A DNA stretch of 64,000 bases, taken from Capitulum mitella. Its lineage: Eukaryota; Arthropoda; Thecostraca; Pollicipedomorpha; Pollicipedidae. Each line of letters begins with the position of its first letter. The first letter of the stretch is position 1. The stretch spans positions 3,090,393 to 3,154,392 of the forward strand of contig CP099851.1 of the NCBI GenBank assembly GCA_030062745.1, in the 5' to 3' direction. A program made the position numbers and the translations under genes. Below the pieces are notes generated by a model. The model ran no database searches, had not been told where the DNA came from, and saw nothing but the letters and a program-made list of their open reading frames with translations. Below, in pieces: positions 2,004 through 47,757 of this stretch.

Positions 2004-2781
2004 GAGCCGCGGCCGCCGCTCTACAACGCCGAGGACTACGTGCTGGGGCTGCGCCGCTGGGGCCGCAGGGGCGGCACCAGGCACTACATCGAGGGCGGCG
2101 ACGGCCGCGAGCGCGACGCCAAGCGCGACCCCAAGCGACGCGGCGCCAAGCACGACCGCCAGGAGATGCGCATGCGCCAGTTCGCCGACGTCTCGGAACT
2201 GCTGAAGAAGCTGCGGCAGGACCTGCGCATGTCGTATCCCAGGTAGGGCCGGCCGCGCGACGGCGCGGCGCCGGCCGACGGGCGTTTGAGGGCCACAGAG
2301 GTGCTCAAACTGGTTGCGTGTCGTGGCTTGCGTTGCCGGCACGTTGGTGTCGGATAGCAGTGTTTTAATTGCGCAGAAGCGTGTTTTCATTTTTGATTGC
2401 AAAGTAATCGTTGGAAGTCGTGCTGCCGAGGATGATTTATTTATGGAGACTCGCGTGCTCTTATCCTTTTCTTGTGGGCTGATTGAAGAGATTATCTCAA
2501 GATTATGTAGTTCTGTGTATGCAAGCGGCTGCTATAATTGCATTAAATTACACCTCCAACAAAACGTTTAAATTGCAAGTCATGACCTCGATCATAGACA
2601 TGGCTCTCAGCGCATTAAGCTGCAACGTCGTATTTGGTTTGAAGGTCGACGCCCCGTAAACGCAGTCTACAACTTCCAACTTCCATGATTCAAATAACGA
2701 TGAAACTACGTCTTTTCATGTAACAAAAATGGTCTTTGGCTACCGGAAGACTGGATTTCGGCGTTGTTGTTGACGAAGAAT

Positions 2782-2849
<68 letters not shown>

Positions 2850-5800
2850 GAGTAGAACCAAACCTTCTCTGGCATAAACACGTCCTTTACGTGTTACGGT
2901 GGCCGAGTCATGAAGATGACCTAGTGCTAAAACATTGGGTCTGACGTTGGTACATATATTTTACCAATAAATCCCAGCCTCTCCTGGCATTAAGTGGGTT
3001 GTTGTTATTTCCGTTATCGCGAAACTGCACAGTTGCGCTAAACGGACAGACCAGGGCCTCCAGGAGTTAGCACCCACACAATGGCACACTTGAATGTAAA
3101 CCGAACAAACGCACTTAAAGATACGGGACAAGATTTGCCAAGGAGGGAGCCAGGACACATCCAGCTCCCTTCAAAACTGAATATTCCTTGGATCTCGTCC
3201 ACTTTATTTTCGAATCCCTTTGCCCCCCCGCCCCGTCCCCCCTTGTTCCAAGGTGCTGTTTTGAAAGAGTTCAGATTCCATTTTTAATGTGTTGGCATTC
3301 GCCATATGGTTTTGAGCTGTTCTGAAACGACGTCTTTTGAATACGAGAAACACCAAATCCATGGATATTCTTTGTATATGTATATCATATCCTTCTATAT
3401 TTTTTATGTCTTGTAGGCGCGGTATTCTTTAATGTTTCCAAAAATGCTGATAAAAACAAAATGACAAATCTGGAACGTTGAGGCCGCGGTCACAAGCGTA
3501 AGCTGAATTCAGTCAGCAGCCCGGGCTTCACCGGAAGACCAACACGACTGAGTGGACGCCCGTGACGTTTTGGGTGTGGTGGGAGCGATCGGCTTGAGAC
3601 GCGGCGTTGGCGTTGTACGGTAGCGCTGCCGCTGCCACCAGGCGCGTTTGGCTGTGTTCGATTTAAACGAGTGCTTTGACATGTGAGGAAAATTTCGCAG
3701 CTATACACAGTCTACACGTTCTATGAAAATCAAAAAGAAATACACGTTCTACGTTTTTCATTTTCATAACGAGGCTTGCGGAGCATCTTTTTCATGTGGA
3801 GCGTGGCTGTTTCAGTTTTGTGCGAGAGTTTGTGTCGGAGCCCTTCGACGGAGTCACCGGTCTGCTGGACCTTCTGAAAATGATTCAGCTGTCTCAAACA
3901 GACTATGCAGGTGAGTCCACAACGTCCCTGCCATCCATCTCGACTTTGTTCCGTTCAAATAAATGCTGCAACGGATCTTCGTTTCATAGCCGTATAGTTT
4001 TCCCAAACAGATACGGCCGGGCGTTTTCAACCACTTGTTTGAGGAAATACCGCAAACTTTCTGTTCAGTGTTGTAGGCCCTTGTTAACATCGCTGAGCAG
4101 TAGGAGGTGCCCATCACCCGGCCCCGGATCTCCAGACGTGTCATTCGTCTGGTGCCGCTTCTAGCGGCGATGAGGCTCTCTCACGAGCCGGGTACGGACT
4201 GTTCCCTGTAATCTAGCAAACAACTCCGCTGCCAGGCTTCGCTGGGGGCCAGCTCTCGTCGTGACCATTCACGATTAACATAACGAGATTGCAGCACGTT
4301 CGCAAAGCCATTGAAGCACTTAGGCAGTCGATGACCTTGCGATGCATTGCGCAGTGCATCTTCATCATCATCGTCGTTACGACAATGACGATGTTGTACG
4401 TTTCTAACGGTTTGATTGTCGGGTTGGCAACGTTTCATTGGCTTGACCTGGAAGCAGGCATTTGGAGACGGTGGTACACGTCTACAGTGGAGGTGCTGGG
4501 TTTCTCGGGGTTACCTTCCGTCGATCCCGAACATACACGCCTCTACCTTCTGAACTGGGTCCGTCTGACGAGGCCAGAGAGCCGTCTTGGTGGAATGCGT
4601 TCAAGGAGAAACCTCTGACTCGTCCGTAACGTGTAAACAATGTAAAACCATGTAAAAGTCGGGGATTTTGGTTGCTCCTGGCCAGCACGATCCGTCAGTC
4701 CAGCTTCTGCCGTGGCTGCCTGTTGGTTGGTCGGGTTTCCCAAGGCGCGCCGGCCGGGACCAGCCGTATGGGCGCGGCCGGCGCCAGCTGATCAGCACCA
4801 ACGGAAGCGCACGCCGTGGTCCGTTAGCCAGTTCCGCGGCCGTCAACACCGCCCGGCGTCACCGGCACTGCTCTCAGCGAGCTGCGGCACCGGCGGCCGA
4901 CCCGGCCAGGTGGCTGAGAGGGTCTTCAGTCCTCCCTGACGGGTACAGAGGGCCTCCAGTCCTCCCTGACGGGCACAGAGAGCCTTCAGTCCTCCCTGAC
5001 GGGTACAGAAGGTCTTCAGTCCTCCCTGACGGGTACAGAGGGCCTCCAGCCCTCCCTGACGGGTACAGAGGGCCTCCAGTCCCCCCTGACGGGTACAGAG
5101 GATCTCCAGTCCCCCTGATGGGGTACAGAGGCTCCCCAGTCCCCCTGGTGGGATACAGAGGCTCCCCAATCCCCCTGATGGGATACAGAGGATCCCCAGT
5201 CCCCCTGATGGGATACAGAGGCTCCCCAGTCCCCCTGATGGGATACAGAGGCTCCCCAGTCCCCCTGATGGGGTACAGAGGATCCCCAGTCCCCCTGATG
5301 GGGTACAGAGGATCTACAGTCTCCCCTGATGGGATACGGAGGCTCCCCAGTCCCCCTGATGGGGTACAGAGGATCCCCAGTCCCCCTGATGGGATACGGA
5401 GGCTCCCCAGTCTCCCCTGATGGGATACAGAGGATCCCCAGTCCCCCTGATGGGGTACAGAGGATCTACAGTCTCCCCTGATGGGATACGGAGGCTCCCC
5501 AGTCCCCCTGATGGGATACAGAGGCTCCCCAGTCCCCCTGATGGGGTACAGAGGGTGTCCAGTTCTCCCTGACGGGGGGGACATCCTTACGAGAACATCC
5601 TTATGACGGGGCACGGATGACACGTGTCCTCTCAGACACGGTACATCGATCAGTCATTCCATCCTCTCACTCTGAAGGAGGGGTAAAACTTTTCACATGG
5701 TAGATAGAGCAATCAGTCCACCTCTCTGTGGTACGAATCCTTTCAGTGATCAACGAATCAATCACCCAATCAGTCAGTACGTCATCGGAGTCAGTATATG

Positions 5801-8800
5801 AATCGTAATCAATATATGGATAAAAAATGTGATCTAAAATAGTTCACCAATCAATGAATAGATCAGTCATGGTGCCGACCATCCCACGGACCCCTAATCC
5901 CCCGTTTGTGTCGCTACAAACGGCAGGGAGGCTCTTCTGTACGACCGTTCCGTTCCACGGAAGCCGAGGTGGGATCGTTCCACGACAGTCGCCGGCGCTT
6001 CGGCCACGTGCTCACGCCTGCGGAGCCTGGCCCCGTTTCTGCGGCGAGTTCGCCTCCTCTGCGGCGGAATGAGGCGTCTCGCGTCATTTTGGTCCCCGCC
6101 GTGGACCAGTGAGCCCGTTTTCCAGCGCCGTCGTCCCATTTACCGCCGAGCCGGCCGAATTTGGCCGGTCCGGGGCGAACGCTCGTCACCGGTCCCCGCG
6201 CGGCCGACAGCTGACTGCCGATAGCGCGGACAATTGCGGCGCGGTGCCGCGCCGGGATCGCCTCGCGCCGGCTCCGGCGCGGTCTCAGAGCGGGCCCGCC
6301 GGCCCGTGAACGTGCGTTCGGCCGTGACAGGAGAAACCGGCGGGGATCGCCGGTCGACGACCCGCCGACACGCTGGCCGAGTCGACCTCTCTGCTCTCCT
6401 GCGTCACCTCTGCATTCGCTGGGGAGGAAGTGAAACGGCGAGATCCGGCCACAAAACTGCAGCACTGGATTTTACCTGTTTTCGGTCTGGAGTGGCCCCC
6501 AGGTTCTTGCTGTTAAGTATTTCATGTTTTTTTTTGCGGATGAGAAGTTATACCGAGGCTGTTTTGCAAAAGCAGGTTTCGAGGGTCACGTACATTTGAG
6601 GGCCGGACCGGGCCCTCAGAGGTACATTTTTTGCGTAGAGATGCTTGAACTTCACAGGGGCGGCCAGGGGCACCCCCCCCCCCCCCCTCCCTTAGGCCCG
6701 CAGTTTTTGTGAAAATCATTGCATATCGTCTTCCCGGCAGGCGGTTTTCATATGATTTGAGTTCGCATTTCGCTCCCCCCCCCCCCTTAACAGAATCCTG
6801 GTTGCGCCCCTGTTGTAATTGGAAGAGTTCGGTTTGTATTGTGCGGCTGGATATATTTTATTGTTGTTAATGGACTATTTTGTTCTTCCCTAGGATCTGA
6901 ATCACAAACGGGCCACGGCAGAGATGTACTATGCAAATGGCATGCGGAAACCCACATGCACTTCATTCTTCTTGATGATAAAATTCGCTCATTTATGCGG
7001 GATCAGTCGGGATGTATTTCTGAATACTTCTCCCCTTCACTGTGTGCTCATTTTCCGCCATTGCCTTCTCAGGGTCAGCTTGACGCCACGCGTTAGGCAG
7101 ATACCGCGAATTAGTTCCTGTCTTCCGCTTATTCGGGATGGTGGGTGGTACGATCTCCATTACCGCACAGCATTCGATCTCGCGGCCGCAGGCAAGGCCT
7201 CACCTCAGTCCAGTGATCTCCGTGAAATGGAGTGTTGCGGTTTAGGACCACCAAACAGGAGGTGCCTCAGGCTGATGGATTCATCCGTGAAGCGTCGTTC
7301 CTTTTACGGCCGGTCACGGCGCTCTGACGTCGTTCCTCGGTATGTCCGGCATATGGCGGGAGTGGCGGGCGCTAAACCCGGGCCGTTACTCCCGTGACGT
7401 TACGCCGCTGTGACCGTAACGTCGGTAGGCAGAACGTGTCGCCGTAATAGCGGCGGCTGCTGCGCATGAAGGACCTTGACCAGCGGCGTACTTCATTGCA
7501 ACCTCGGGACGTTGTCAGAAAACGGGGGCGCTTGTCATTTCTCGCCCTTGACCGCGAAACCAGTGGCTCCTGGTTCAGCAGCATGGCCCAGTTCAGTGTT
7601 CGAGTTTAAATAATGAGGTAGCCGTGACGGTCTTCGGGTGGTCGCGAGCTGTGACTTGTTTTGCAAGGCGAAACTGTGTTGTCGGCAATGATTCCAAGCC
7701 GTGTGTGGAATGCCTCGCACGCTCCGGTCGATGGCGTCTCGTCTTTTCTGGAGCAGAACGTTTTTTGACTGCAGTAAAGCCGCCGCTCAATTCCAGCGAC
7801 AAGGAAACGCTTGACAGCGCGACTTTCCAAGTGAAACTTGCAGATCTTGGAGCTGCCACGTGTCTCCCGGGCTGACAGCCGCCATTTTTCCCCCACCCAG
7901 CTGCGATGAACGGCACTCTACGTTCCAAGGAACACCACAACTTCTTCCGCCGCGCGCTCACCGACGAGTACGACTGCCTGCTCTGCCTGAAACACTGCCT
8001 GCGCTGCGAGGAGACGGCCGCCAAGCTCACCAGCTACTCGCACGGCCTCTACACGGTGGCCGTCTGCATCATGAGCAACTTCAGCAAGTCCCGGACACTG
8101 GCGCTCGAGGTCAGTGCTGCCAGCTGGCGGCGGCCGGGGAAAGGAAACGTTCAGTTTACGTTAACAGTCCGTCTCAGGGATATCTGCAAAACAGCGAGGC
8201 TGACGAGGACAACATTTGAGCGAAAATGCCATGGCAAAACATACGGTATGAAACAATTATCGTCGGTAGGTCTGATTTATTTTGCATTCAAATAGCTCGT
8301 GTCAGGCACATGGTCAGGCACGGTCATAGAACCGCCACCTCGTCAATCAACAGCTTGGTTGGACGGTTTTCACAACGGTTTTGCTTTACCACTGTCGTCT
8401 GTTGAACTGTGTGGCAGCTGCTGACGGTGGCCTGCGAGGCGCCTCCCAGAGGCCACCAGCAAGTGATGGAGGCCTGCTCCACGCTCCGCCTGAGGTTTGG
8501 GGAGCCGGTGCGGTTCAAGTTTCTGGTGGGAATGCTGACTTCCTTCGGCTCTCCCAGGTGAGTGTAAGCCGTGGTGACGTCACCAACCATTTCGCAGTTT
8601 GTTATTCGGTTTGCGAGGGAATTTTATTCATATTTCCCCGTTCCGTAAAGCCAAGACCATGGTTAGTGTGTCAACTGTGCCAGGGGAATCCCTGTACGCA
8701 TGATATCCATTAAGATATGTGCCACAGCCATACGTACTTGATACGGAGCCGGTGTTTTCTGGCCGCGCCGACTCAGCAGTCTGTTTGTGTCCAGTTTCCA

Positions 8801-11800
8801 GCTGGCGTGTCTGCGGTTTTTGAACCGGCTCACCGGGCTGGCGGCCGATAAGAAGGAGCGGGTTCACCTGCAGGCCGAGATTGAGGAGGCCGGCTTCGAC
8901 GTCAACATCATCAAGAAGGTGCACCGCTGAAGGGGCTGTCTATCATGGGACCTTCGGGGCGTTACGTAAAAGTTGCAGAACGACCCAAATTGGCCCTGCA
9001 GAATCCGTAAAAACTACCGGAGAATGAGTCTTCAGCTGCATTTCCTTTGGGGGATCTGGTATACAGTCCGACTTGATTGGTTGGTGCCGCTTTCGAAAAG
9101 TCATCGAGGATATGTCGTCGCCGCTCTTTCGTTCATTGAGTTGGGGTATACCTATGAAGAAATTCCGACTGATCTCGGGTATGTTGGGAAGAAAAAATAG
9201 TCGCAGGCGATATGCCTTCAATCAGTATTGTTGTGCAACGAGAAACGTGATAGTCTGGTGACACAAACGTCATTGCCGCCAGTTTCTGTCGGCTTCCAAC
9301 GAACACGCGGCAGTTCGAGAGGAGCTCGAGAGATGGCAGCAGCAGTACGTGGACGTGGAGGAACTCTATCAGCAGCTCCAGCAGGAACTGACCAACTCTG
9401 CCCGACTCCGCGCAGAAAAAGAAGCTCTGAACAATGAAGTTAAGGTATATCTTTAACACCAATAAAGGAGCACGATGTGACGTGAGATGAGAAGGAGGGG
9501 TGACGGTTTGTATTCTTTTGAGAGGGTCCTGGCCCATCCAGTGTTGATTTGGTCCCACCATGTTGGTTTGGGCCTTCCCAATATTTTCTGCCGTTTTTAA
9601 AGGGAAATGAATGATAATAGCGGAAAGAACGACTGCGATAGATAAGAGATAGGTAGAAAGCAAAGAATAAAGTCTAAAGCGATATATTTGCCTATCTTTC
9701 TATCTTCTGTCAATATATTTACCGAGATACATGGGGATAATGCAGTTTTTATTCGGTAAATAGTAACGAAAAAATGAAATTTTCTTTGGTCAAGTCCGTT
9801 GGGAAACCGACATTTAATGGGAAGATAAGGTTGTTGGGACCTCAGCTAGGGCCCCCCAGTCATTTACAGAAATCGACTTCCCTGATAGAAAGGCTTCATA
9901 TATAGCGAGAATCATTTTGCCTTTAATGTCCATTGCATACGAATTCGTTTGATCGCAACAACGATCCAGCCGGCCTCCACGCATTTTAACGGCTTCGATG
10001 GTGGCCGACGTCGGTGGAAATCGTTTGGCGCTTGTTTCCGCAGAAGCACGTGAACTGCATACAAACGCTGCGCCACAAGGAGAGCCTGCAGGCGGCCCGC
10101 CTGGAGGAGCTCGAGACGCGGATGGACGCGCTCGTCGGCCGTGGCAGCCGGCAGAGCCTGCGGCACGCCTCCTCAGAGCCACCTGTCGGCTCGAGTTTGT
10201 ACTCCAGCTTCTCGCCGCCGCCGGCCGAGGACACCAGGGGCGACGCCGACGTCAGCTCCGCGGCGTCCTCCAGCTCGACGCTGTCGTCGCTCTCCGCTTC
10301 GATGGCGAGCCACAGCGACGGCGTGGCGCCGGCCGCCGTCAAGGAGGCCAAACCGGAGGAGAAGGAAAAGGAGAGCAGCGAGGAGGACAACAATGGCCGT
10401 CGGGTAAACACTGGTGGAATGACACTGACTCTGGCCCAATGTAGATTCTGTTCCGAACCCTCTGTGGATTCAGATACCACAAGCTCAGAATGACAGGTAA
10501 TTAAGTGCAAAGGCATCAGTTTTGGTTTCCTGGTTGTATTAGGTACGGGGCTTACAGTAGTCCGGTTTCATAGATAATACGGTGTTCGCAAAATAGGGTG
10601 TTTCCTACCGCGTGTCGCTGCAAACGCAACGCACTCGAGTGGCTAGTGCCGTGGTACGAAAGGATGAGCTCGACTGACATCATTTGTCCCCCCTCAGCCG
10701 CAGGGCAGGCTGTCTCCGTCGGATTTCGAGAAGGAGAAAATCTGCGAGGAGATGATCGAGGTGAAGAACGAGATGATCATGTTCGAGCCGGGCGTGTCTC
10801 CGGGCGCTGTTTCCCCGCGGCCCTGTAAACAGGTCAGTCGGCAGTTCCCCGCAGCCCTGTAAACAGGTCAGTCACCGTCTCCCCGCGGCCCTGTAAACAG
10901 GTCAGTCGCTGTCTCCCCGCGGCCCTGTAAACAGGTCAGTCACCGTTTCCCCGCGGCCCTGTAAACAGGTCAGTCACCGTCTCCCCGCAGCCCTGTAAAC
11001 AGGTCAGTCACCGTCTTCCCGCGGCCCTGTAAACAGGTCAGTCGCTGTCTCCCCGCGGCCCTGTAAACAGGTCAGTCACCGTCTACCCGCGGCCCTGTAA
11101 ACAGGTCAGTCGCTGTCTCCCCGCAGCCCTGTAAACAGGTCAGTCACCGTCTTCCCGCGGCCCTGTAAACAGGTCAGTCACCGTCTTCCCGCGGCCCTGT
11201 AAACAGGTCAGTCACCGTCTCCCCGCGGCCCTGTAAACAGGTCAGTCGGCAGTTCCCCGCGGCCCTGTAAACAGGTCAGTCGGCAGTTCCCCGCGGCCCT
11301 GTAAACAGGTCAGTCACCGTCTCCCCGCGGCCCTGTAAACAGGTCAGTCACCGTCTCCCCGCGGCCCTGTAAACAGGTCAGTCGGCAGTTCCCCGCGGCC
11401 CTGTAAACAGGTCAGTCACCGTCTCCCCGCGGCCCTGTAAACAGGTCAGTCACCGTCTCCCCGCGGCCCTGTAAACAGGTCAGTCGCCGTCTCCCCGCGG
11501 CCCTGTAAACAGGTCAGTCGCCGTCTCCCCGCGGCCCTGTAAACAGGTCAGTCACCGTCTCCCCGCGGCCCTGTAAACAGGTCAGTCACCGTCTCCCCGC
11601 GGCCCTGTAAACAGGTCAGTCGGCGGCTGCCCGCGGCCCTGTAAACAGGTCAGTCACCGTCTCCCCGCGGCCCTGTAAACAGGTCAGTCGCCGTCTCCCC
11701 GCGGCCCTGTAAACAGGTCAGTCGCCGTCTCCCCGCGGCCCTGTAAACAGGTCAGTCCCGTCGGCGCCCGCGGCCCTGTAAACAGGTCAGTCACCGTCTC

Positions 11801-14800
11801 CCCGCGGCCCTGTAAACAGGTCAGTCACCGTCTCCCCGCGGCCCTGTAAACAGGTCAGTCACCGTCTCCCCGCGGCCCTGTAAACAGGTCAGTCAGTCGG
11901 CCGTCTCCCCGCGGCCCTGTAAAGTCAGGTCGCCGTCTCCCCGCGGCCCTGTAAACAGGTCAGTCGCCGTCTCCCCGCGGCCCTGTAAACAGGCAGGTCA
12001 GTCACCGTCTCCCCGCGGCCCTGTAAACAGGTCAGTCGCCGTCTCCCCGCGGCCCTGTAAACAGGTCAGTCACCGTCTCCCCGCGGCCCTGTAAACAGGT
12101 CAGTCACCGTCTCCCCGCGGCCCTGTAAACAGGTCAGTCCCGTCTCCCGCGGCCCTGTAAACAGGTCAGTCTCCCCGCGGCCCTGTAAACAGGTCAGTCA
12201 CCGTCTCCCCGCGGCCCTGTAAACAGGTCAGTCACCGTCTCCCCGCGGCCCTGTAAACAGGTCAGTCGGCGGCTGCCCGCGGCCCTGTAAACAGGTCAGT
12301 CCCGTTCACCGTCTCCCCGCGGCCCTGTAAACGGCGCGGCCCCCGCGCCCTGTAAACAGGTCAGTCGGCCGTCTCCCCGCGGCCCTGTAAACAGGTCAGT
12401 CACCGTCTCCCCGCGGCCCTGTAAACAGGTCAGTCACCGTCTCCCCGCGGCCCTGTAAACAGGTCAGTCACCGTCTCCCCGCGGCCCTGTAAACAGGTCA
12501 GTCGCCGTCTCCCCGCGGCCCTGTAAACAGGTCAGTCGCCGTCTCCCCGCGGCCCTGTAAACAGGTCAGTCGCCGTCTCCCCGCGGCCCTGTAAACAGGT
12601 CAGTCACCGTCTCCCCGCGGCCCTGTAAACAGGACAGCGTCCCGCGGCCCTGTAAAAGTCACCGTCTCCCCGCGGCCCTGTAAACAGGTCAGTCCGTCCC
12701 CCCCGGCCCTGTAAACAGGTCAGTCACCGTCTCCCCGCGGCCCTGTAAACAGGTCAGTCGCCGTCTCCCCGCGGCCCTGTAAACAGGTCAGTCGCCGTCT
12801 CCCCGCGGCCCTGTAAACAGGTCAGTCGCCGTCTCCCCGCGGCCCTGTAAACAGGTCAGTCGCCGTCTCCCCGCGGCCCTGTAAACAGGTCAGTCACCGT
12901 CTCCCCGCGGCCCTGTAAACAGGTCAGTCACCGTCTCCCCGCGGCCCTGTAAACAGGTCAGTCACCGTCTCCCCGCGGCCCTGTAAACAGGTCAGTCACC
13001 GTCTCCCCGCGGCCCTGTAAACAGGTCAGTCGGCGGCTCCCCGCGGCCCTGTAAACAGGTCAGTCACCGTCTCCCCGCGGCCCTGTAAACAGGTCAGTCA
13101 CCGTCCGCGTCCCCGCGGCCCTGTAAACAGGTCAGTCGCCGTCTCCCCGCGGCCCTGTAAACAGGTCAGTCGGTCACCGTCTCCCCGCGGCCCTGTAAAC
13201 AGGTCAGTCACCGTCTCCCCGCGGCCCTGTAAACAGGTCAGTCACCGTCTCCCCGCGGCCCTGTAAACAGGTCAGTCACCGTCTCCCCGCGGCCCTGTAA
13301 ACAGGTCAGTCGCCGTCTCCCCGCGGCCCTGTAAACAGGTCAGTCACCGTCTCCCCGCGGCCCTGTAAACAGGTCAGTCGGCGGCTGCCCGCGGCCCTGT
13401 AAACAGGTCAGTCGGCAATTCCCCGCGGCCCTGTAAACAGGTCAGTCACCGTCTCCCCGCGGCCCTGTAAACAGGTCAGTCACCGTCTCCCCGCGGCCCT
13501 GTAAACAGGTCAGTCGCCGTCTCCCCGCGGCCCTGTAAACAGGTCAGTCGGCGGCTGCCCGCGGCCCTGTAAACAGGTCAGTCACCGTCTCCCCGCGGCC
13601 CTGTAAACAGGTCAGTCGGCGGCTGCCCGCGGCCCTGTAAACAGGTCAGTCGGCAGTTCCCCGCGGCCCTGTAAACAGGTCAGTCGGCAGTTCCCCGCGG
13701 CCCTGTAAACAGGTCAGTCGCCGTCTCCCCGCGGCCCTGTAAACAGGTCAGTCGCCGGCTCCCGCGGCCCTGTAAACAGGTCAGTCGCCGTCTTCCCGGC
13801 CCTGTAAACAGGTCAGTCGCCGTCTCCCCGCGGCCCTGTAAACAGGTCAGTCACCGTCTCCCCGCGGCCCTGTAAACAGGTCAGTCACCGTCTCCCCGCG
13901 GCCCGTCGGCCCTGTAAACAGGTCAGTCACCGTCTCCCCGCGGCCCTGTAAACAGGTCAGTCGGCAGTTCCCCGCGGCCCTGTAAACAGGTCAGTCGCCG
14001 TCTCCCCGCGGCCCTGTAAACAGGTCAGTCGGCGGCTGCCCGCGGCCCTGTAAACAGGTCAGTCACCGTCTCCCCGCGGCCCTGTAAACAGGTCAGTCGC
14101 CGTCTCCCCGCGGCCCTGTAAACAGGTCAGTCACCGTCTCCCCGCGGCCCTGTAAACAGGTCAGTCACCGTCTACCCGCGGCCCTGTAAACAGGTCAGTC
14201 ACCGTCTACCCGCGGCCCTGTAAACAGGTCAGTCACCGTCTCCCCGCGGCCCTGTAAACAGGTCAGTCACCGTCTCCCCGCGGCCCTGTAAACAGGTCAG
14301 TCGCCGTCTCCCCGCGGCCCTGTAAACAGGTCAGTCGCCGTCTCCCCGCGGCCCTGTAAACAGGTCAGTCGCCGTCTCCCCGCGGCCCTGTAAACAGGTC
14401 AGTCACCGTCTCCCCGCGGCCCTGTAAACAGGTCAGTCACCGTCTCCCCGCGGCCCTGTAAACAGGTCAGTCACCGTCTCCCCGCGGCCCTGTAAACAGG
14501 TCAGTCGGCCGTCTCACCGTTCCCCCGGCCCGCGGCCCGCGGCCCTGTAAACAGGTCAGTCGCCGTCTCCCCGCGGCCCTGTAAACAGGTCAGTCACCGT
14601 CTCCCCGCGGCCCTGTAAACAGGTCAGTCACCGTCTACCCGCGGCCCTGTAAACAGGTCAGTCACCGTCTCACCGCGGCCCTGTAAACAGGTCAGTCACC
14701 GTCTCACCGCGGCCCTGTAAACAGGTCAGTCACCGTCTCCCCGCGGCCCTGTAAACAGGTCAGTCGGCAGTTCCCCGCGGCCCTGTAAACAGGTCAGTCG

Positions 14801-17800
14801 GCAGTTCCCCGCGGCCCTGTAAACAGGTCAGTCGCCGTCTCCCCGCGGCCCTGTAAACAGGTCAGTCACCGTCTCCCCGCGGCCCTGTAAACAGGTCAGT
14901 CGCCGTCTCCCCGCGGCCCTGTAAACAGGTCAGTCACCGTCTCACCGCGGCCCTGTAAACAGGTCAGTCGGCAGTTCCCCGCGGCCCTGTAAACAGGTCA
15001 GTCGCCGTCTCCCCGCGGCCCTGTAAACAGGTCAGTCACCGTCTCACCGCGGCCCTGTAAACAGGTCAGTCGGCAGTTCCCCGCGGCCCTGTAAACAGGT
15101 CAGTCGGCGGCCGCCTGCGCTGCGGGCGGGGCCAGGTTCACTCTGCTGGGTGACCAAAGCGCTGGCTGCTGGAAAAATGAGACTTGGATCTGGGCATTAT
15201 CTACACTTGGGAGTGGTCAGCTCGTTGTTTTGATTATTTATGCGCATGCCACCTTTTTCCTTCATATTGTTCACTCTTTGACACTGCTTTCGTATACATC
15301 ACGTGAGTGCTCCGATGTCTTTTTCAGTGAGTTATTGTTTGGTCTTTGCGACAATTTGGCAGCCTTTTTCAACGCATAGTATCATTTAATCCAGTATTCC
15401 ATTTTACCGTGCTGTAGCACTCTTCTGCCACAAATCATCGGTAGTTTAGCTGCTTCCATGTCGTCAGAAAAGCCTCTCGTTGTCTGCTTCCCGACTTTGG
15501 TTGACTGGAGCCGGCGGGTCAGACATGCAGTTTTGTGTCAATAGAGCCGGCTTCTGGACTGCCGCCCTCCTCGCCGTCAGAGCGAGTTGACGATGCGTCT
15601 ATGTGGACCGTGTTGGTCAGTTGTCACTGCGCCGTCGCTGTCTGCTGCGCAGTCGTAGCGGCCCGTGAACCAGATCATCTTGCCGTCTCTCTGGGGGACG
15701 GTGTGTGCATGCCTGATCAGCTGTCAGCCCTCTGTAGAGTCGGAGCGGCCCGTGTACCAGAACATCTTGCCGCCTGTGTGGGAGGACGGTGTGTGTGTAT
15801 GGCTGGTCAGCCCTCTGCTCCTGTACAGTCGGAGCGGCCCGTGAACAGAACGTCTCGCCGCCAGTGTGTGGAGGGGACGGCGTGTGTGTATGGCTGTTCA
15901 GCCGTCAGCCCTCTGTTCTCTGTTCAGTCGGAGCGGCCCGTGACCAGAACATCTCGCCGCCTTTGTCTAGATGGGACGGTGTGTGTGTGTATGGCTGTTC
16001 AGCCGTCAGCCCTCTGTTCTCTGTTCAGTCGGAGCGGCCCATGACCAGACCAGAACGTCTCGCCGCCTGTGTCTAGAGGGGACGGCGTGTGTGTATGGCT
16101 GTTCAGCCGTCAGCCCTCTGTTCTCTGTTCAGTCGGAGCGGCCCGTGTACCAGAACGTGTCGCCGTCGGCGCCCTGCGGCCGGCGCAGCTGCGAGTCGGA
16201 CGACGTCCGGGAGGCGATGGAGCAGCTGACCAGCGTCATCGACAACGCCGAGTGCACGCTCAGCCTGCTGTCCGGTGAGCGGCCGGCGCGCCGGGCCGCC
16301 CGCCCGCGGCGCCTGGGGCAGATTGGCAGGCCCCGGCCAGACGGTCCGCACCGATGTGGTCGTTTTCCGGGTGCGGCAGCGCTGTGTTCTGAATCACTGA
16401 CGTGGCGTTTTGTAGTGACGGAGTTGATGAGGCGCGGTGGTAATGTTTGTAATACGCAGTTACTATCGCATCTGAGAGAACTGAGATGAACATTCTTTCA
16501 GTCGTCTAAAATTAGCTGTACTGTCGAAGGTGGATCACAAATCGCCATCCCTGAAGGCACCTTTCAGCAGTCACCACAATCTCAGTTTCGTTTGCCGGCC
16601 GCTAGATGTCTCTGTGTCCGCCAGGTCGGAGCGGCTCCTCCGGTGACGCGGGCGGCCCGAGTCCGCCGGCGCGCGTCTCGCGCGGCTCCCGGGAGCGTCA
16701 CATCGTGCCGTGTCGGCTGCAGCGGCCGCCGTCCTCGCGGCGCGGCGCCAGCCCCGAGAGGCTGCGGTACGGCCGGCCCGACAGCCTGACCGAGAGCAGC
16801 GACACGGCGGCCAGCCTCAACAGCGGCCACCAGCGGCCGGCCGACCTCCGGCCCTCCAGGTAATAGAGCCGCCACACAACGCAGCACAACACAACACAAC
16901 AATACAGCCGGCCTGAACAACGGCCACCGCGGCCGACCGACCCCCGGCCGTCCAGGTAACAGAGCCGCCACACAGCGCAACACAACATAACACAACTGAA
17001 CTCAGCACAACACAACACAACAACACGGCACAACCAACAGCCAATAACCAGCCTGAATAGTGACCACCGGCGGGAAGCCGACTTCCGGCCGTCCGGTACA
17101 GAGCACAGCAAAGACTGCACGACAGATCGGGTCCCGGCGCGGGTTCTGCAGGAAACAGCCACTGCAACCGTCGATAGTGCATTAAACCGACATGCCTTTA
17201 CCCTGCCGACTGGCTTTTCATCAGAGACATCGTTACATCTGAAGGATCAGTTTCTGTCATGTGTGAAGCCCGGTATCTCGTCTGTTTGATACTCACTTGT
17301 CTCGTTGATCGTAACGTCGATTTCGCCTGACTCCCTGACGCCGTTGTCCCTAGTCCGGCATGGGTTGTTCGTTGATGATCGTTCTGACCGAAATCCCGCC
17401 GGCAGCGCCGTGGAGACGGAGAGCACGCGCAGCTTCCACTACGCGCGCGGCTCGGGCCTGCGGCGCCGCGAGACGTTCGCCGACGACCTGAGCCTGGAGC
17501 AGCGGCGCGCCGCCGTCCAGCGCTCCGGCAGCTTCCACCAGGGCGCGCCGGCGGCGGCGGCGGCGGCGCGCGGCTGGCGCGGCAGCGTCGACCAGCTGAG
17601 CGGCTGCGAGTGGCGCGCCTCCGCGCCGCCGCCGGCGGAGGCGCCGCGCCGCGCGCGCTCGCGCGACGCGCTGGCCGCCGAGCGGCGGCCGAGCTCGCGC
17701 GAGCGCGACGACCGCTTCCAGCGGGCGGCCGAGGCGCGGCTGCAGCGCTGGCTGCAGGAGCGCCGCCCGCCCGGCGAGCAGCCGCCGCCAGCCCGGCCGC

Positions 17801-18066
17801 AGCGCCGCCGGCGGCCGGGCGGCGGCGCCGGCTCCGGGGCGGCGCCGGAGCGGGAGCCGGAGCCGCGCCGCCGCGGCGGCCGGCTCGACCACTCACTGCC
17901 GCAGTCGCGCAGCTTCCTGTCGCGCGGCCACAGGAACGCGGGCCGCTACTCGGCCGAGCGCAGCGTGGAGATCCCGTCGCCCGACTACAGCAGCGGCACG
18001 CTCTCCACCGTCGTCAAGATGAACATCTCCAACCGGATCATGGAGCTGCCGTCGGCGCTGTACTGA
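2004..18066 (+). CDS. mwh: GBD-FH3 domain protein, multiple wing hairs-like (5' end missing)
   Basis: Eleven exons join in phase: 2004-2242, 3816-3910, 7901-8109, 8418-8557, 8795-8918, 9283-9444, 10044-10403, 10698-10832, 16133-16274, 16625-16859 and 17406-18066 (TGA). They give 2,502 nt, 833 residues plus stop. Residues 1-111 resemble a formin GTPase-binding domain (LRMSYPSFVREFV across the first junction). Residues 112-269 resemble FH3, with CIMSNFSKSRTLALE, RFGEPVRFKFLVGML and LACLRFLNRLTGL. A coiled coil follows at about 270-350, then low-complexity Ser, Glu and Arg stretches. No FH1 or FH2 actin-nucleating domain is present, and the protein ends in-frame, so it matches the GBD-FH3-only architecture of Mwh, which in flies acts downstream of planar polarity proteins to restrict actin prehair initiation. 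The assignment rests on architecture and length, not alignment. One donor (GTGCAC after 8918) is weak. The start codon lies upstream of 2004. Introns 8 and 10 carry splice-junction repeats. Confidence 0.75.
2784..2846. repeat. (AT)n microsatellite
   Basis: A pure AT dinucleotide run of about 31 units lies in the intron between the first two recognised exons of the mwh-like gene. Confidence 0.95.
4917..5575. repeat. 30-bp minisatellite in an intron of the mwh-like gene
   Basis: About 22 tandem units of 30 bp (a few of 31) are present. The 5' units carry CTCCCTGACGGGTACAGAG and the 3' units carry CCCCCTGATGGGATACAGAG, so the array has two subfamilies with a switch near 5,110. The period is a multiple of three, so long repetitive open frames exist on both strands (GYRGSPVPLM-type on +, YPIRGTGEPL-type on -). 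They lie inside the 3911-7900 intron, lack splice support and are judged non-coding. Confidence 0.9.
10812..15107 (+). repeat. 34-bp minisatellite made of exon end plus 5' splice site, about 126 copies
   Basis: The array starts inside the coding exon 10698-10832 and fills most of the following intron. Each 34-bp unit holds the exon's last bases and the donor (CCCTGTAAACAG|GTCAGTC), followed by a variable 10-base part that reads mostly CACCGTCTCC, CGCCGTCTCC, CGGCAGTTCC or CGGCGGCTGC. The real exon-intron junction is simply the first unit. Most units are intact; a few have small deletions or extra bases (for example near 11,925, 12,345, 12,640 and 14,515). The unit length is not divisible by three, and reading from the exon into the second unit meets TAA at 10860-10862, so only the first donor keeps the full frame. 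Confidence 0.97.
15640..16165 (+). repeat. Tandem repeat of 3' splice site plus exon start, about 6 copies
   Basis: Units of roughly 90-105 bp each contain a pyrimidine-rich stretch, an AG and the start of the following exon (CAG|TCGGAGCGGCCCGTG). Exon-like starts are seen near 15,655, 15,738, 15,829, 15,930 and 16,030, and the genuine exon starts at 16,133. The spacer between exon-like parts carries GACGGTGTGTGTGTATGG and CAGCCCTCTGTTCTCTG. The last copy alone continues into the full exon. Earlier copies differ by indels (GTGAACAG, GTGACCAG) that change frame. Open frames through this stretch are repeat artefacts. Confidence 0.92.
16800..17100 (+). repeat. Triplicated exon end plus 5' splice site
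   Basis: The end of exon 16625-16859 and its donor (CGGCCCTCCAG|GTAATAGAGC) recur as CGGCCGTCCAG|GTAACAGAGC with its junction at about 16,955, and again, more diverged, near 17,095 as CGGCCGTCCG|GTACAGAGCA. The copies are separated by ACAAC-rich simple sequence. The in-phase chain to the next exon (17406) uses the first copy. Confidence 0.85.
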
Positions 18067-18875
18067 GGCGGCGGTGGCGAGGCCGCTCTGCGTCCCAGTG
18101 ACGTCTGCAGGCTGCCGGTGGGGAAGACTCGGACAGAGCACTTCGTCCACAGACAGACAGAAAGATGCGGCCGATCAGCGTTGAAGCCAGAGCCAGAGCC
18201 CCGTCGATGCGTCGTGAGAGTCGGCTTTGTTGTTACGAATACGTAGTTTTCGACGACTTTCCGAGTGAATCTGTAGTAAAATTTCGTTTTGAAACGGTGT
18301 TTTATTTGCATACGCTGTTGTACGCGATGCAGAACGTTTTAACAGGTTGTTAGAAGTTTTTTTTTGTTGCATTTTTGTCATCTTTTCGCACTGTCGTTTA
18401 CCTGCCGCATGATGCGTTTGCGGAATTATTCGTGTGTTATTGAGGTATATGTTACTAAGCCGTATACGCTGACCAGACCGATGCTTGGTCTGGCACGAGC
18501 TAAAGTGGATTTGTATTCTCCTGTTCTGCTCAATGTCCAGACAGCTGTCTGGGCGTTGCCAGTACCCCTGGTGACTGCCTGTTGTGCCGTGGGCTGGCAA
18601 CGTTGACTGATGTTGATGCGAGCGCTCCAACATCATCAAGAGTGACAGATGATTGAGCTATTTACCCGCTGCCTCGAGTTGCGCTACTCTTTTCGGTAAA
18701 GGTGTTTGCGAATGCAATATGACTTTGGCGATCATGTTAACAACGCCTGCTTTGTGTTTTGGTTACTTTGTTTCACATGCGTTAGGTTCGGGTCATTGAA
18801 GCGGAAGCGAGCTGAATAAGGTGCCTGTAAAGCTTATAGGATGGTGTTCGATTGCGTCGTTTATCTCGTTATAAT

Positions 18876-21240: not shown

Positions 21241-22500
21241 GCTAGTCCAGTGTGATGTACTGCTCGGAACAAGCTGGAAAAAAAACGATGAATTGCATAG
21301 GCTTAGAGCACTGTGCTTGTCTGGGGGTTTTCGTATGGAACGGGTCGGCTAGCTGCGGCGAGGACGGTGTCAGTGCCCGCATGATCCACATGTCTTTTGA
21401 TGCGATCAGCGCGGCGTTCCTGCATTTGATCGATCCTAGCATCTCTTTGGCCGATGTGCCAGATTCCTGGAATATATCATTTTTAAATGCCCTCATTTTT
21501 CCTATCTCTGAATCCTGAGATCCTACTAACCCATCCAACTTCTGGCCGATTTACATCGTTCCTCTCATCGCCAAAATTGTACAGCGGGCCCTCCACCAAC
21601 AGTTCTACAAGCTGCCTGTCCCAGAACAATCTCCTCTCCCCAACTCAGCACGGATTCAGTCCTCGTCACTCGACGGAAACCGCGCTGATATTCATATCCG
21701 ACCACATCCCTCCAGCCAATGACCGTGGGGAGACGTCCGTACTTTGCCTATTGGATTTGAACGAATGCTTTGATGTGATAGACCACGCGTAACTCTTGAC
21801 CAAACTGCAACTTAACGGAATCGACATATCTTGGTTTTCGATGTACCTTCGTAACCACAACCAGTGTCAGCCTCACTGACGCTCAGGGAAACCCTAAAAT
21901 ATCTGCCCCGCTCCCCAACAGCATCGGAGTTTTCCAGGGCTCCGCTCTCGGCCCCTGCTCTACTGCGTCTTTGCAAACGACCTCAGTCTGCTCGCTGAGG
22001 GCGCAGTAGTCGTCCAGTACGCCGACGACATTCAAATTCTGGTTTGTGGTAAAAAGCCTGAATTCCAAAACGCCGTTACTGCGATGGAGCAGGTCCTGGT
22101 TTCTCCTGAAATTTGGTTTCGAGCAAACGGGCTAAAGGTAAATGTCAGCAAGACTCGACTGATGTTGTTGGGCAGTGCGCAAAATCTGCGCAGCGCCCCT
22201 AATTTTACCGCAAAATTTCGCGACCACGACCTTTTCCCCGTTTCGGAAGCTAAAAATCTGGGAATTACCTTTGATCCCTGTTTCAGCTGGGACTCATACA
22301 TCACCGCCGTTACCAGGTGCTGTTTCGGAACTTTAAGTGGCCCACCACATCTAAGGAGTTACCTGCCGCCGTCCTTTATCTCCGCTCTGTTCAATACCCT
22401 GGTCCTCTCACAGATCTGATATTGTATCTCGGTATGTAGCAATGGTACTCAGAAAACCTGTCTGGCCTCCAGAAAATCATTAAATTTGCAGCAAGTTGTT
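21241..22500 (+). mobile_element. Degenerate non-LTR retrotransposon, CR1/Jockey-like reverse transcriptase fragment
   Basis: Pieces of a reverse transcriptase appear in order, spread over different frames. They are a finger-region stretch near 21,420-21,520 (FLHLIDPSISLADVPDSW), a template-contact stretch at 21,640-21,790 (QHGFSPRHSTETAL then LLDLNECFDVIDH), the YADD catalytic box near 22,018 (VVQYADDIQILV), and the thumb-like NGLKVNVSKTRLMLLG and LGITFDPCFSWDSYI segments to about 22,290. Stops and frameshifts interrupt it (for example the TAA at 21,790-21,792), and no endonuclease or poly(A) tail is recognisable. The clade is inferred from motif spacing; the element is dead. Confidence 0.8.
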
Positions 22501-31500: not shown

Positions 31501-32182
31501 TTTTAGCATCGGTGCCTGGATTATTCCGGCCACAAGGTATACCAATCGATACATCTCATTGAGACCTTTCGATTGATACCTTATTTCGGTGTCTACCCAT
31601 CACCGTTTTTCATATAATCGCAATTATCACTTTGGATGGTCTCCAACTGAGCACTCTGAAAATCGGTCCGAATGTGCTTGTGAAGCGGCCAAGGTAAACG
31701 CGTGTACGCAAAGATTCAGAGGGAGGAATATTCCAATAATTGCTCATCTCGTAGATGAATATTTATACTTTGATATGCAGCAAAGATTTTTTCTAATGCT
31801 TTTCCCAAAACATGGATTTTTCGCCGGTTTTTGAAGGCTACCTTTTTTAGCTACGTAACTGTGCTTGTTTATGCTGAAATATTTGTGTCAGCAAGGCACG
31901 CGGACAAGGGAATATCTCACTCAAATATATCCCAATATTCTGGCAATCGTTCTGCAATTACAATTGCCGGCTTCCGTGCCGTATAGACCTTAATTTTACG
32001 TTTTTCCGCAAACACAAACACAGTTGTCAGTCGGCAGACCCAGCTGGTCGAGGCCAAGTCCGCGCGATCGAAGGGCGTACTTTACGGTCGTCCAAGAGTT
32101 CATAGGTGGGACGGGCGCGGCGGGCCGACGTAAACGTACGGTGGCTGCGGCAGAGGTGGGTACACGCGCTCTGTGCTCGACC
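28546..32182. other. Intergenic, nothing recognisable; 5' flank of histone H1
   Basis: I found no supported gene. Poly-C runs lie at 28,771-28,780 and 30,769-30,779. A GC-rich stretch at 30,780-30,940 has an open Pro/Arg-rich frame, but no splice chain or domain could be attached to it. The last 180 bases before the H1 ATG are CpG-rich and probably contain its promoter and 5' untranslated region; I see no clear TATA box. Confidence 0.4.
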
Positions 32183-32752
32183 ATGGCTGACGACGCTGCT
32201 GCTGCCGTGGCGGCCCCGGCCAAAAAGGGGAGGAAGCCGAAGGAGGCCGGCGCCAAGAAGAAGGCGACCAAGCCGTCGCACCCGCCGACGCTGGAGATGA
32301 TCACGAAAGCGATCTCTGTCGAGAAGGATCCGAAGGGCGTTTCGGTGATGGCCATCAAGAAGTACATCCTGGCGCAGTACAAGGTGCAGCCGGTGATGCT
32401 GCGCCACATGCTCCGTCGCGCCTTCGACGCCGGCCTGGCAACGGGTAAGCTGACCCGCCCCAAGGGTCAAGGCGACTCGCACCTGCTGTCGGGCCGTTAC
32501 CGCCTGGCCTCCAAGGAGAAGGTGGCTGCCGCCCCCGCCGCCCCCAAGCCCAAGAAGGCCAAGACGCCAGCCAAGAAGGCACCTGCGGCGAAGAAGGTCA
32601 AGAAGGCAAAGACTCCGAAGAAGAAGCCGGCCGCTGCCGCGGCCAAGAAGGCCAAGTCCCCGAAGAAAGCGAAGAAGACGCCAAAGAAGCCTGCTGCCAA
32701 GAAGGCTCCGGCCAAAAAGAAGACTCCGAAGAAGGCTGCAAAGAAGGCGTGA
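32183..32752 (+). CDS. H1: Linker histone H1
   Basis: This single exon encodes 189 residues. A short Ala-rich head leads to a basic stretch (residues 14-32). A winged-helix globular domain follows at about 32-112 (SHPPTLEMITKAI, KGVSVMAIKKYILAQYKV, GLATGKLTRPKGQG). The tail, about 113-189, is almost only Lys, Ala and Pro, with repeated KAKTPKK/KKAKSPKK blocks. It would bind nucleosomal linker DNA and compact chromatin. The ATG at 32183 is chosen because the globular domain starts at the usual distance; upstream codons in frame are GC-rich leader. No core histone genes lie nearby, no histone 3' stem-loop is seen, and an AATAAA follows at 33073, so it looks like a solitary, polyadenylated, replacement-type H1. 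Confidence 0.93.
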   Translation: MADDAAAAVAAPAKKGRKPKEAGAKKKATKPSHPPTLEMITKAISVEKDPKGVSVMAIKKYILAQYKVQPVMLRHMLRRAFDAGLATGKLTRPKGQGDSHLLSGRYRLASKEKVAAAPAAPKPKKAKTPAKKAPAAKKVKKAKTPKKKPAAAAAKKAKSPKKAKKTPKKPAAKKAPAKKKTPKKAAKKA

Positions 32753-45485: not shown

Positions 45486-45945
45486 GTATTTTGCATCTAA
45501 AAATGATGCGGAATTTTCTTGAGGTAAGTTTTGCGGTGTCTGTCATCTCCGTTACGTCTCAGTTATATCCAATATCCGTCTAGTTTGGTTCGCGATTCAG
45601 TCACGTGCGATTTTTGACGCCTCCAGTTTCAAAAAGCCATTTCCATTTGTCATGTGCATGGGGGCTGGCAAGCTTCTGCACAATCTTGCCATAGATGCAA
45701 TCTCCGTTTGTGCTGCCATCATGTTAATCCTGCCAGGCCTGCAAGGATACTGCCCATGGTTGAAGCCTCAACCAAATTATGGGCCTTGCCAGGAGCAATG
45801 CTAGCTTCATTCTTCCCATGCAGTGCCATACGCCGAGGGTTAATGATCAAAATTACTGGCGGTGCATTTCCAACACCGGTAGTTCCACCTTTGACTGTCC
45901 CATTCCCATTATTTCAGGCAATATTCCCGGTCATTGCAAAGAAAA
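45486..45945. other. Intergenic spacer, nothing recognisable
   Basis: The spacer lies between the zinc-finger poly(A) signal and the left end of the pogo/Tigger element; no gene or repeat was recognised. Confidence 0.5.
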
Positions 45946-47757
45946 AGTCAAATCTCGTTACTATGCCACCTCGCTACTATGCCACTCTCGCTATTATACC
46001 ACTTTCGCTCGGGCCCGACCAAATTCAATACAAAATAAATTTACTATGCCACCCCCTAATCTCGCTACTATGCCACGATTGTGTGTGTTGTATTTTCCCA
46101 TTCAATTTTTTTTTCAAATTCAGCCCATAATGTCGGCTCAGAAGCGCAAGCGAACCGACTTTACGCTGAAGGAGAAAAAGGAGATCATCGATGCCGCGAA
46201 GAAGGAGCCGAATCAGTCCAAGCTGGCCAGGGAGATAAGCAAGAAATGGGGCGTCGAAGTTAAGAGAACCACCGTGAAGGGCATTCTCAGGAAGGATGCA
46301 ATCGAGGCGGCCATCAAAGCTAGAGTTCCATCGAAGCGCATGAAGCTGACGCAGGCTCACGACCCGAAGCTCGATGAGGGGGTGCTCATGTGGCTGAAGC
46401 AAGCAAGAGGACAGAATCTGCCAGTCAGCGGCGATCTGATCAAGGAGAAGGCGATGAAGCTGGCCGAGCTGATGCACATCCCGGACTTCATGGCGAGCGA
46501 CGGTTGGCTGGACGATTTCAAGAAGCGTCACGGCATCACGTTCAAGACAGTGCAGGGCGAAGCTGGAGCGGTGGATTCGCAATCCCTTCTTGAGTGGCAA
46601 CAACAGGTTTTCCGGCCCTTGCTCGGGCAGTTCTCCGCAGACGACGTCTTCAACCTGGGCGAGACTGGACTCTTCTGGCAGTTGCTTCCGAACAAGACCA
46701 TGGCTTCAGGGGAGTGCGGTGCACTGGAGGAAAGAGAAGCAAGCAAAGAATCCCTCTTCTGGTCGGGGCAAATATGAGCGGCAGCGAGAAGTTCCCTCTT
46801 CTGGCGATCGGCAATTCCAAGAGACCCCGTGCCTTCAAGAACAAGGAGATCCCGGTCACGTAGAAGGCGAAATCGAAGGCGTGGATGGCGGCGGAGCTTT
46901 TCGAGGTGTTGCGTGCGTGGGACGGACGACTCGGCCAGCAGGGACGCAGAGTGCTGCTCTGTCTCGATAACTTCTCTGGCCACCCTCCCGAGCTCCAGCT
47001 GGACAACATCCAACTGGTCTTCTTCCCACCCAACACGACAGCCAATTCTCAACCAATGGATCAGGGAATCATAGAGAAACTCAAGCGCCACTGCAAGTAG
47101 TTCCTGCTGTGCCGCCGGCTCGAGGCCATAGATGAGGGAAAGGAGTTCAGATTGCTCGACGCTCTACCTGTCGCCCGGCGTGCTTGGGAGCAGGTCAGCG
47201 AGTCGACGATCAGGAACTGTTTCGCGAAGGCCAAGTTCATCGAAGAGGAGATCCAAACTGAGCCAGAGGATGCTGAGCTCCTCGAGATTTGGGAAGCTCT
47301 GCCTGCCGAGGAAAAGATGCACGAGAACGAGATCGAGCTGTCTGACTTTCTCGAAGCCGACGAGCGCCTCGCGACTGGCGGGTCTTTCACGCTGGAGGAC
47401 ATTGCGGAGGAGATGCCGCGCAGCGAGGAGCCGGTGGAAAGCGAAGGCGACGAGGTAACTGTCGAGGAGGACATCGTTCCGTTCGAGGAAGCCCAGCGCG
47501 CATGGAGCACCGTCCGGAAGTTCATGCAGCAGAGAAGCGGGAAGCCCGGTGTGATGCAAGCGTGCGATCGGCTAGACGAGATGCACGAGATCCGCCGAAA
47601 GAAGATGCGCCAGCCGACGATTCTTGAGAGCTTTGGGTTCAGCTGATGGGTAACTTGAGAGAACAAAGCCGTTTTACAAGCCCTCGTTACAATGCCACTC
47701 TCGCTTTATGCCACTTTCGCTCGGTCCCCACGGGTGGCATAGTAACGAGATTTGACT
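45946..47757 (+). mobile_element. pogo/Tigger-type DNA transposon with 25-bp perfect inverted ends
   Basis: The 25-bp ends at 45,946-45,970 and 47,733-47,757 are exact reverse complements (left end begins AGTCAAATCTCGTTACTATG). Just inside both ends are subterminal direct repeats of the type CTATGCCACTCTCGCT. The element is about 1.8 kb and holds one transposase gene in + orientation. Pogo-type elements duplicate TA; the right end is followed by an ATG-rich flank and no clean TA duplication is evident, so the true tips may differ by a few bases or have mutated. Perfect ends with a broken gene suggest a fairly recent, non-autonomous copy. Confidence 0.88.
46130..47646 (+). pseudogene. Tigger-like transposase, disrupted
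   Basis: The N-terminal part (46130 on) has a CENP-B/pogo-type helix-turn-helix (LKEKKEIIDAAKKEP, then LAREISKKWGVEVKR) and a second DNA-binding part (SDGWLDDFKKRHGITFKTVQG). The DDE core follows: FNLGETGLFW near 46,650, LLCLDNFSGHPPE near 46,960 and the PMDQGIIEKLK block near 47,060. Defects are an Asp-to-Gly change in the first catalytic box (family form DETGLFW), a frameshift between about 46,700 and 46,740, and in-frame TAG codons at 46861-46863 and 47098-47100. The acidic C-terminal part is open to TGA at 47646. It cannot make active transposase as read. Confidence 0.9.

Follow-up and report, generated by a model that had tools for sequence, protein, structure and literature searches.

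How does a gene keep its message intact when the 5' splice site of one of its introns lies in more than a hundred tandem copies? This question is raised by a stretch of 64,000 nucleotides of the genome of the barnacle Capitulum mitella (NCBI GenBank assembly GCA_030062745.1, contig CP099851.1, positions 3,090,393 to 3,154,392 of the forward strand; the whole stretch is hereafter the window), in which the end of exon h of a gene resembling mwh (multiple wing hairs) passes into a 34-bp minisatellite that carries a splice donor in nearly every unit. To our knowledge, work on the choice among near-identical 5' splice sites has mostly relied on engineered copies, two or a few at a time. The present array places 122 near-identical donors ~34 bp apart in a conserved gene, and their use could be read out cleanly, as the protein is predicted from the first donor only. 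We suggest that the array is probably neutral for splicing, and that the gene would tolerate it by using the outermost splice sites of the intron.

On homology, the host gene of the array is a barnacle mwh-like gene. Its 11 located exons join into a single open frame of 833 amino acids, in which Pfam recognizes Drf_GBD and Drf_FH3 domains; no first coding exon with a start codon could be located. Amphibalanus amphitrite supplies the best homologues, three proteins 51–58% identical of which two are named formin-like, and further homologues include a Tigriopus protein and insect proteins, several of which are named mwh. An ancient genome duplication in barnacles, described in the available part of PMC11331182, may account for the presence in Amphibalanus of mwh-like proteins of two kinds. 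The gene, the array and the sites on which the argument turns are as follows.

2004..18066, plus strand: mwh-like GBD/FH3 gene with 11 exons (joined frame, Pfam and homologues)
2004-2242, 3816-3910, 7901-8109, 8418-8557, 8795-8918, 9283-9444 and 10044-10403, plus strand: its first seven exons
10698-10832 (h), 16133-16274 (i), 16625-16859 (j) and 17406-18066 (k, with the stop codon), plus strand: its last four exons
10698..10832, plus strand: exon h, whose 3' end would be the founder of the array (frame, and gap-free homology over the 3' junction)
10805..15104, plus strand: donor array, 34 bp, 126 units, 122 with CAG/GTCAGT, the slash marking the splice boundary (Tandem Repeats Finder, TRF, and direct counts)
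10805..10838, plus strand: first unit, the 28 terminal exon bases plus GTCAGT (natural register, exon part followed by GTCAGT)
10833..10838, plus strand: first donor, the sole frame-keeper among 122 (frame test and homology)
10860..10862, plus strand: TAA, reached in frame from any of the 121 later donors (frame test)
16133..16274, plus strand: exon i (frame and homology)

Within the window, TRF reported a 34-bp minisatellite of 126.8 copies at 10812-15105, and direct counting of GCCCTGTAAA gave 126 units. The donor CAG/GTCAGT (CAGGTCAGT) is present in 122 of these, with AG/GT at a constant position of the unit, which bears out the original prediction that a 5' splice site had been amplified about 126 times in tandem. 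Donor-to-donor distance is exactly 34 nt in 107 of the 122 units, and in the natural register the last donor stands at 15099. The exact 19-mer CCCTGTAAACAGGTCAGTC occurs 121 times in the array and, in the whole 477-Mb assembly, 121 times on the forward and 0 times on the reverse strand (places listed for 100 of the 121), which equals the array's own count. Copy number is given as it stands in this one assembly.

The array covers a verified exon-intron boundary, with units in the range of ~10–100 bp and the boundary inside the array. Exon h is part of the 833-residue frame, and the A. amphitrite protein P0002 aligns without a gap over the 10832/16133 junction, in a stretch that opens with exon h and extends to VYQNV; in P0001, a more distant Amphibalanus protein, a two-residue gap lies upstream of the junction of exons h and i. 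The earlier claims that exon 10698-10832 is real and ends at 10832, and that the repeat is in register with a genuine exon-intron boundary, thus agree with both the 11-exon open frame and the Amphibalanus homology. The donor motif matches 8 of the 9 bases of the donor consensus, and its U1 duplex energy of -8.0 kcal falls within the span of the other scored donors of the mwh-like gene (-5.3 to -14.1); pairing with U1 as good or better was found for 51 of 3340 other plus-strand GTs. No known RNA family was detected in 9900-18200 at the gathering threshold.

The donors differ sharply in their consequence for the reading frame. Only splicing from 10833 would give a frame that stays open across exon i, while each of the 121 later donors leads to the TAA at 10860, so that extra units do not retain the reading frame and the expectation of a full frame from the first donor alone was correct. 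Homology likewise points to the first donor as the functional one.

The same intron also ends in duplicated splice sites, and one further donor of the gene is duplicated.

15651..16165, plus strand: acceptor array with six copies of pyrimidine tract, AG and the start of exon i (TRF and frame test)
16810..16996, plus strand: duplicated exon j donor, 16860 and 16956, 96-bp unit (TRF and frame test)

The six acceptor copies start at 15653, 15740, 15829, 15928, 16029 and 16133. The last of them, at 16133, alone gives an open frame, and all five earlier acceptors lead to stops. This homology-supported acceptor lies outside the donor array and in a different repeat, and the two ends of the intron are therefore not supplied by one repeat unit. 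At exon j, the second donor (16956) again leads to a stop. A separate array occupies 4917-5576, in an intron of the mwh-like gene and off any modelled boundary; its 30-bp unit is present 21.6 times, or, counted as a 90-bp super-unit, 7.3 times.

Units of the donor array differ mainly in a ten-base stretch flanked by GTCAGT and CCGCGG. Unit 1 has the exon sequence CGCTGTTTCC at this place, and CGCTGTCTCC (2 units), CGCCGTCTCC (26 units) and CACCGTCTCC (45 units) can be reached from it by single steps, while the type CGGCGGCTGC (6 units) resembles CGGCGGCCGC, the flank past the array. The original prediction had described this part as intronic and variable among types; the variation by type was found, but the stretch is exon sequence in unit 1 and only one type is like the intron flank. 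The types nearest to the exon sequence, together with the three CGCAG units, are confined to the first ten units. Among the 107 regular units, variation was seen at 8 of 10 sites in positions 1-10 versus 1 of 24 sites in positions 11-34 (Fisher p 2e-5), and when CGGC types were left out, positions 1-10 varied at 5 of 10 sites (p 0.005). Neighbouring units were of equal type 33 times, against a shuffled mean of 22.9 (reached in 5 of 2000 shuffles). By contrast, the longest repeated run of types was 6, which was matched in 39 of 300 shuffles. Only the similarity of neighbours therefore exceeds chance, and the earlier claim that types recur in blocks and point to higher-order duplication was not supported. 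We infer that the unit types would fit an initial duplication that spanned the boundary, with later growth by slippage or unequal exchange.

A 200-kb sample of the genome, made up of 20 pieces of 10 kb from fixed places, was scanned with TRF and for donors. A donor array phased on the exon end of THOC3 was found in L025 (C1:10000001-10010000) at 8869-9249, with donors at 8896, 8974, 9052, 9130 and 9208, 78 bp apart; the four later ones lead to stops, and solved THOC3 aligns gap-free over the first-donor junction. A looser scan alone detected a decayed donor array of WDR47 in L021 (C13:5000001-5010000) at 2576-2690, with 4.3 copies by TRF and a stop after the later donors, and in the same piece three copies of a WDR47 acceptor, ending at 6449, were noted by eye. 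WDR47 of Pollicipes pollicipes, 92% identical to that of this genome, joins KLTDLR directly to DDHV and continues uninterrupted through ALSGHSGHIL, which is what use of the outermost sites, first donor and last acceptor, would produce. A donor array at an exon end of USP39 (L061) is backed by homology (E 2.9e-10), and a VPS9-domain gene at the array of L057 is nearly confirmed, its match (E 8e-6) falling 0.4 bit short of the curated cut-off. In the reverse complement of L058 (189-571; C8:8148800-8149400), an exon-like stretch lies between a donor array and an acceptor array whose six copies are spaced 37-38 bp. Arrays with donor- or acceptor-like units were also present in L013, L015 and L022, where no exon could be linked to them.

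When the whole genome was searched for three perfect CAGGTRAGT spaced 17-47 bp apart, 96 matches were returned, or 20 loci by our grouping. This pattern would miss the mwh-like gene, and THOC3 and WDR47 are absent from its places. We inspected 19 of the 20 loci, leaving out C6:6.633M, whose matched letters are identical to those at C6:6.607M. Long open frames reach the first donor at several loci, e.g., 300 amino acids in L029, 187 in L050 and 113 in L060. A codon score over the 90 nt before the array was below p 0.05 at 4 of the 19 loci, 0.055-0.136 at 9 and 0.26-0.79 at 6, against a benchmark of four known exons of which one (THOC3) itself scored 0.075. Pfam searches of 10 pieces preceding arrays gave no match for 7 and one of only 0.037 for an eighth; the piece upstream of one array had a weak PDZ match (E 0.0096). 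A coding exon upstream was accordingly not shown for all arrays found by the pattern, and 6 of the 19 do not look coding. At C14 ~21919433-21920467 there is a donor array with a 36-bp unit, near-identical units and 28 overlapping triple matches, and its upstream sequence is not clearly coding.

These counts do not amount to a preference for splice sites. The reversed CAGGTRAGT pattern gave 0 matches, but a shuffled 9-mer pattern gave 505 and its reverse 143 (matches rather than loci, with ~100 places listed). Calibration on the 200-kb sample yielded 2.5-3.3 loci per exact 9-mer, CAGGTRAGT standing for two 9-mers. Tandem arrays of arbitrary words are thus at least as common as donor arrays, and a genome-wide enrichment of donor arrays was rejected because the donor count is within the range of arbitrary shuffled words. 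Large arrays without donors are common in this genome too. One long array, met by a control pattern at C1 ~41961102-41964213, has mostly 21-bp steps on both strands. In the sample, arrays with a period of at least 15 cover 3.5% of the sequence, and 23 runs of at least 3 copies (period at least 17) extrapolate to ~55,000 genome-wide, while a donor with at least 8 of 9 consensus bases was present in 1 of 41 TRF arrays (period at least 10, at least 3 copies). In a genome so rich in arrays, donor arrays at splice boundaries are expected from chance placement. A nearby copy at z>5 was found for 6 of 41 anchored boundaries (4 of 21 donors and 2 of 20 acceptors), but three of the six (mwh h, THOC3-3 and WDR47-0) were the route by which those genes were found, and without them the ratio of 3/38 is not significantly above the 3.5% array coverage (P 0.15). 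Sub-threshold acceptors (KH1 at z 4.6, KH2 at 3.0 and WDR47-2 at 2.6) were left out of this count.

We consider it probable that the array is a splicing-neutral minisatellite in a minisatellite-rich genome, tolerated through use of the outermost sites, for which a special function of the array would be unnecessary. It would have started as a tandem duplication across the boundary of exon h and its intron and grown to 126 units by slippage or unequal exchange. The first donor at 10833 and the last acceptor at 16133 would be taken (almost) exclusively in the animal, so that each added unit would become intron and the mRNA would be unaffected by copy number. Position would decide the choice of donor, either by exon definition or by first-come choice during transcription. 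Use of the outermost sites would explain how such arrays can persist, how a conserved gene can hold one of more than 100 copies, and how two of them can lie at the opposite ends of a single intron. We count in its favor that only the 10833/16133 pair both keeps the frame and aligns gap-free with P0002, and that a like arrangement occurs at THOC3, at the WDR47 donor and acceptor and at USP39. Several observations weigh against it. Splice-site scoring of each unit had been proposed with the original prediction; U1 pairing energy, obtained for the first, second and last donor, is equal for all three, and the predicted local accessibility of the first donor ranks 98th among all 122, so that RNA structure does not single it out. 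Among the features tested, position alone sets the first donor apart, and exclusive use of that donor is not obvious because no local feature marks it. The near-invariant core of 24 bases is likewise not what a purely neutral array would predict.

Array length would be equally immaterial if the intron were removed piecemeal, with an inner AG/GT serving as acceptor for the first donor and then as a new donor, since each such recursive step deletes whole units and restores the exon-GTCAGT junction. The presence of CAG/GTCAGT in 122 units fits this, as does the use of dual-specific AGGT sites in tandem repeats of human UBC described in the available part of PMC10809524. However, pyrimidines make up 5 of 10 bases at -14 to -5 before the AG of the unit (read by eye, without a trained-model score), with AAA adjoining, and in other arrays the tracts likewise appeared by eye to be weak in many units; we regard this route as unlikely. 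Occasional use of inner donors could instead end in a premature stop and mRNA decay, so that copy number would set the output of the gene. One early stop common to all 121 inner donors would serve such a dial, as would a first donor that is neither stronger nor more accessible, but the dial would come at a cost to a conserved gene and arrays with decayed inner donors exist (WDR47), which leaves it rather improbable. Near-identical short units are hard to assemble, and the true locus might hold only a few, although the ordered variant types, the exon-like types restricted to the first ten units, the irregular units inside, the two-ended structure with the acceptor array and the similar arrays elsewhere in the assembly all make an artefact very unlikely. 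The near-invariance of the core would also suit a DNA element acting as a homotypic cluster of putative binding sites, as the core contains TGTAAACA and AGGTCA, which we take to be motifs of forkhead and nuclear-receptor type. Short motifs match by chance, though, the core would have originated as coding sequence plus donor, and the other arrays have different cores, so that we give this hardly any credence. Beyond the single locus, we entertain only tentatively that splice-boundary arrays form a recurrent class in this barnacle genome, kept at up to 122 near-identical donors by a spliceosome that would obey a strict outermost-site rule, in which residual use of inner sites would make array length a heritable splicing dial.

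Related arrangements have been described, as far as the available parts of the sources extend. In human UBC and VCX3A, dual-specific AGGT splice sites are repeated in tandem (Duan et al. 2024, PMC10809524). They share with the mwh array units that each contain AG/GT and intron ends within the repeat array, but the UBC array consists of 9 units of 228 nt that keep the coding phase and whose sites are proven both ways, whereas the mwh array has 122 candidate sites in 34-bp units and is out of phase and intronic. Internal tandem repeats that cross exon-intron boundaries in human duplicated genes (PMC2812944), with 30-bp units in 4 copies on average, are similar as ~30-bp minisatellite units that span the boundary; they are tied to new introns and alternative transcripts, whereas the 126 units of the mwh array are phased such that the outermost site would spare the mRNA. 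Intron gain by duplication of an AGGT segment (the Rogers model, and 24-bp repeats in fission yeast; PMC4974935) also involves tandem copies of an AGGT-bearing segment, but the mwh repeat consists of the exon end and the donor of an intron that is already closed by an independent acceptor. An ordinary intronic variable-number tandem repeat is matched in its head-to-tail units, variant types, clustering of neighbours and one-sided variants, and differs in that the mwh array appears to have arisen from a functional splice donor, with which it is in phase. Intronic minisatellites are reported for earthworm metallothionein genes (PMC12783039), and minisatellites near alternative exons for C. elegans (PMC4039745), none of which is named as donor-built in the available parts of these papers, and in the report on Daphnia repeats (PMC3152781) the word 'splice' does not occur. 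A donor array on this scale was not found in the literature searched, which covers few subscription papers. The view that no comparable arrays had been described holds for scale, which exceeds that of the published cases consulted, but not for kind, given the donor arrays in THOC3, WDR47 and USP39 and the UBC/VCX3A and boundary repeats in print. What appears to be new is the scale, with 122 donors packed into 4.3 kb, together with the test of donor choice that nature has set up in this way, boundary repeats and tandem AGGT sites having already been described in the available sources.

Near-exclusive use of the first donor in transcripts, if true, would be strong evidence for positional choice, and otherwise the array would impose on the gene a measurable cost that depends on copy number. 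Recurrence in THOC3, WDR47 and USP39 of one genome makes the rule testable on independent natural arrays. Splice-boundary arrays will also confound gene prediction and short-read splice mapping.

Elsewhere in the window, the open frame at 45764-47646 presumably resembles a transposase of the Tigger/pogo type, and that at 21898-22419 part of a reverse transcriptase. A KH-domain gene at 50948-56449 on the minus strand is presumably similar to FUBP/PSI, and an open frame at 31994-32752 on the plus strand presumably resembles a linker histone.

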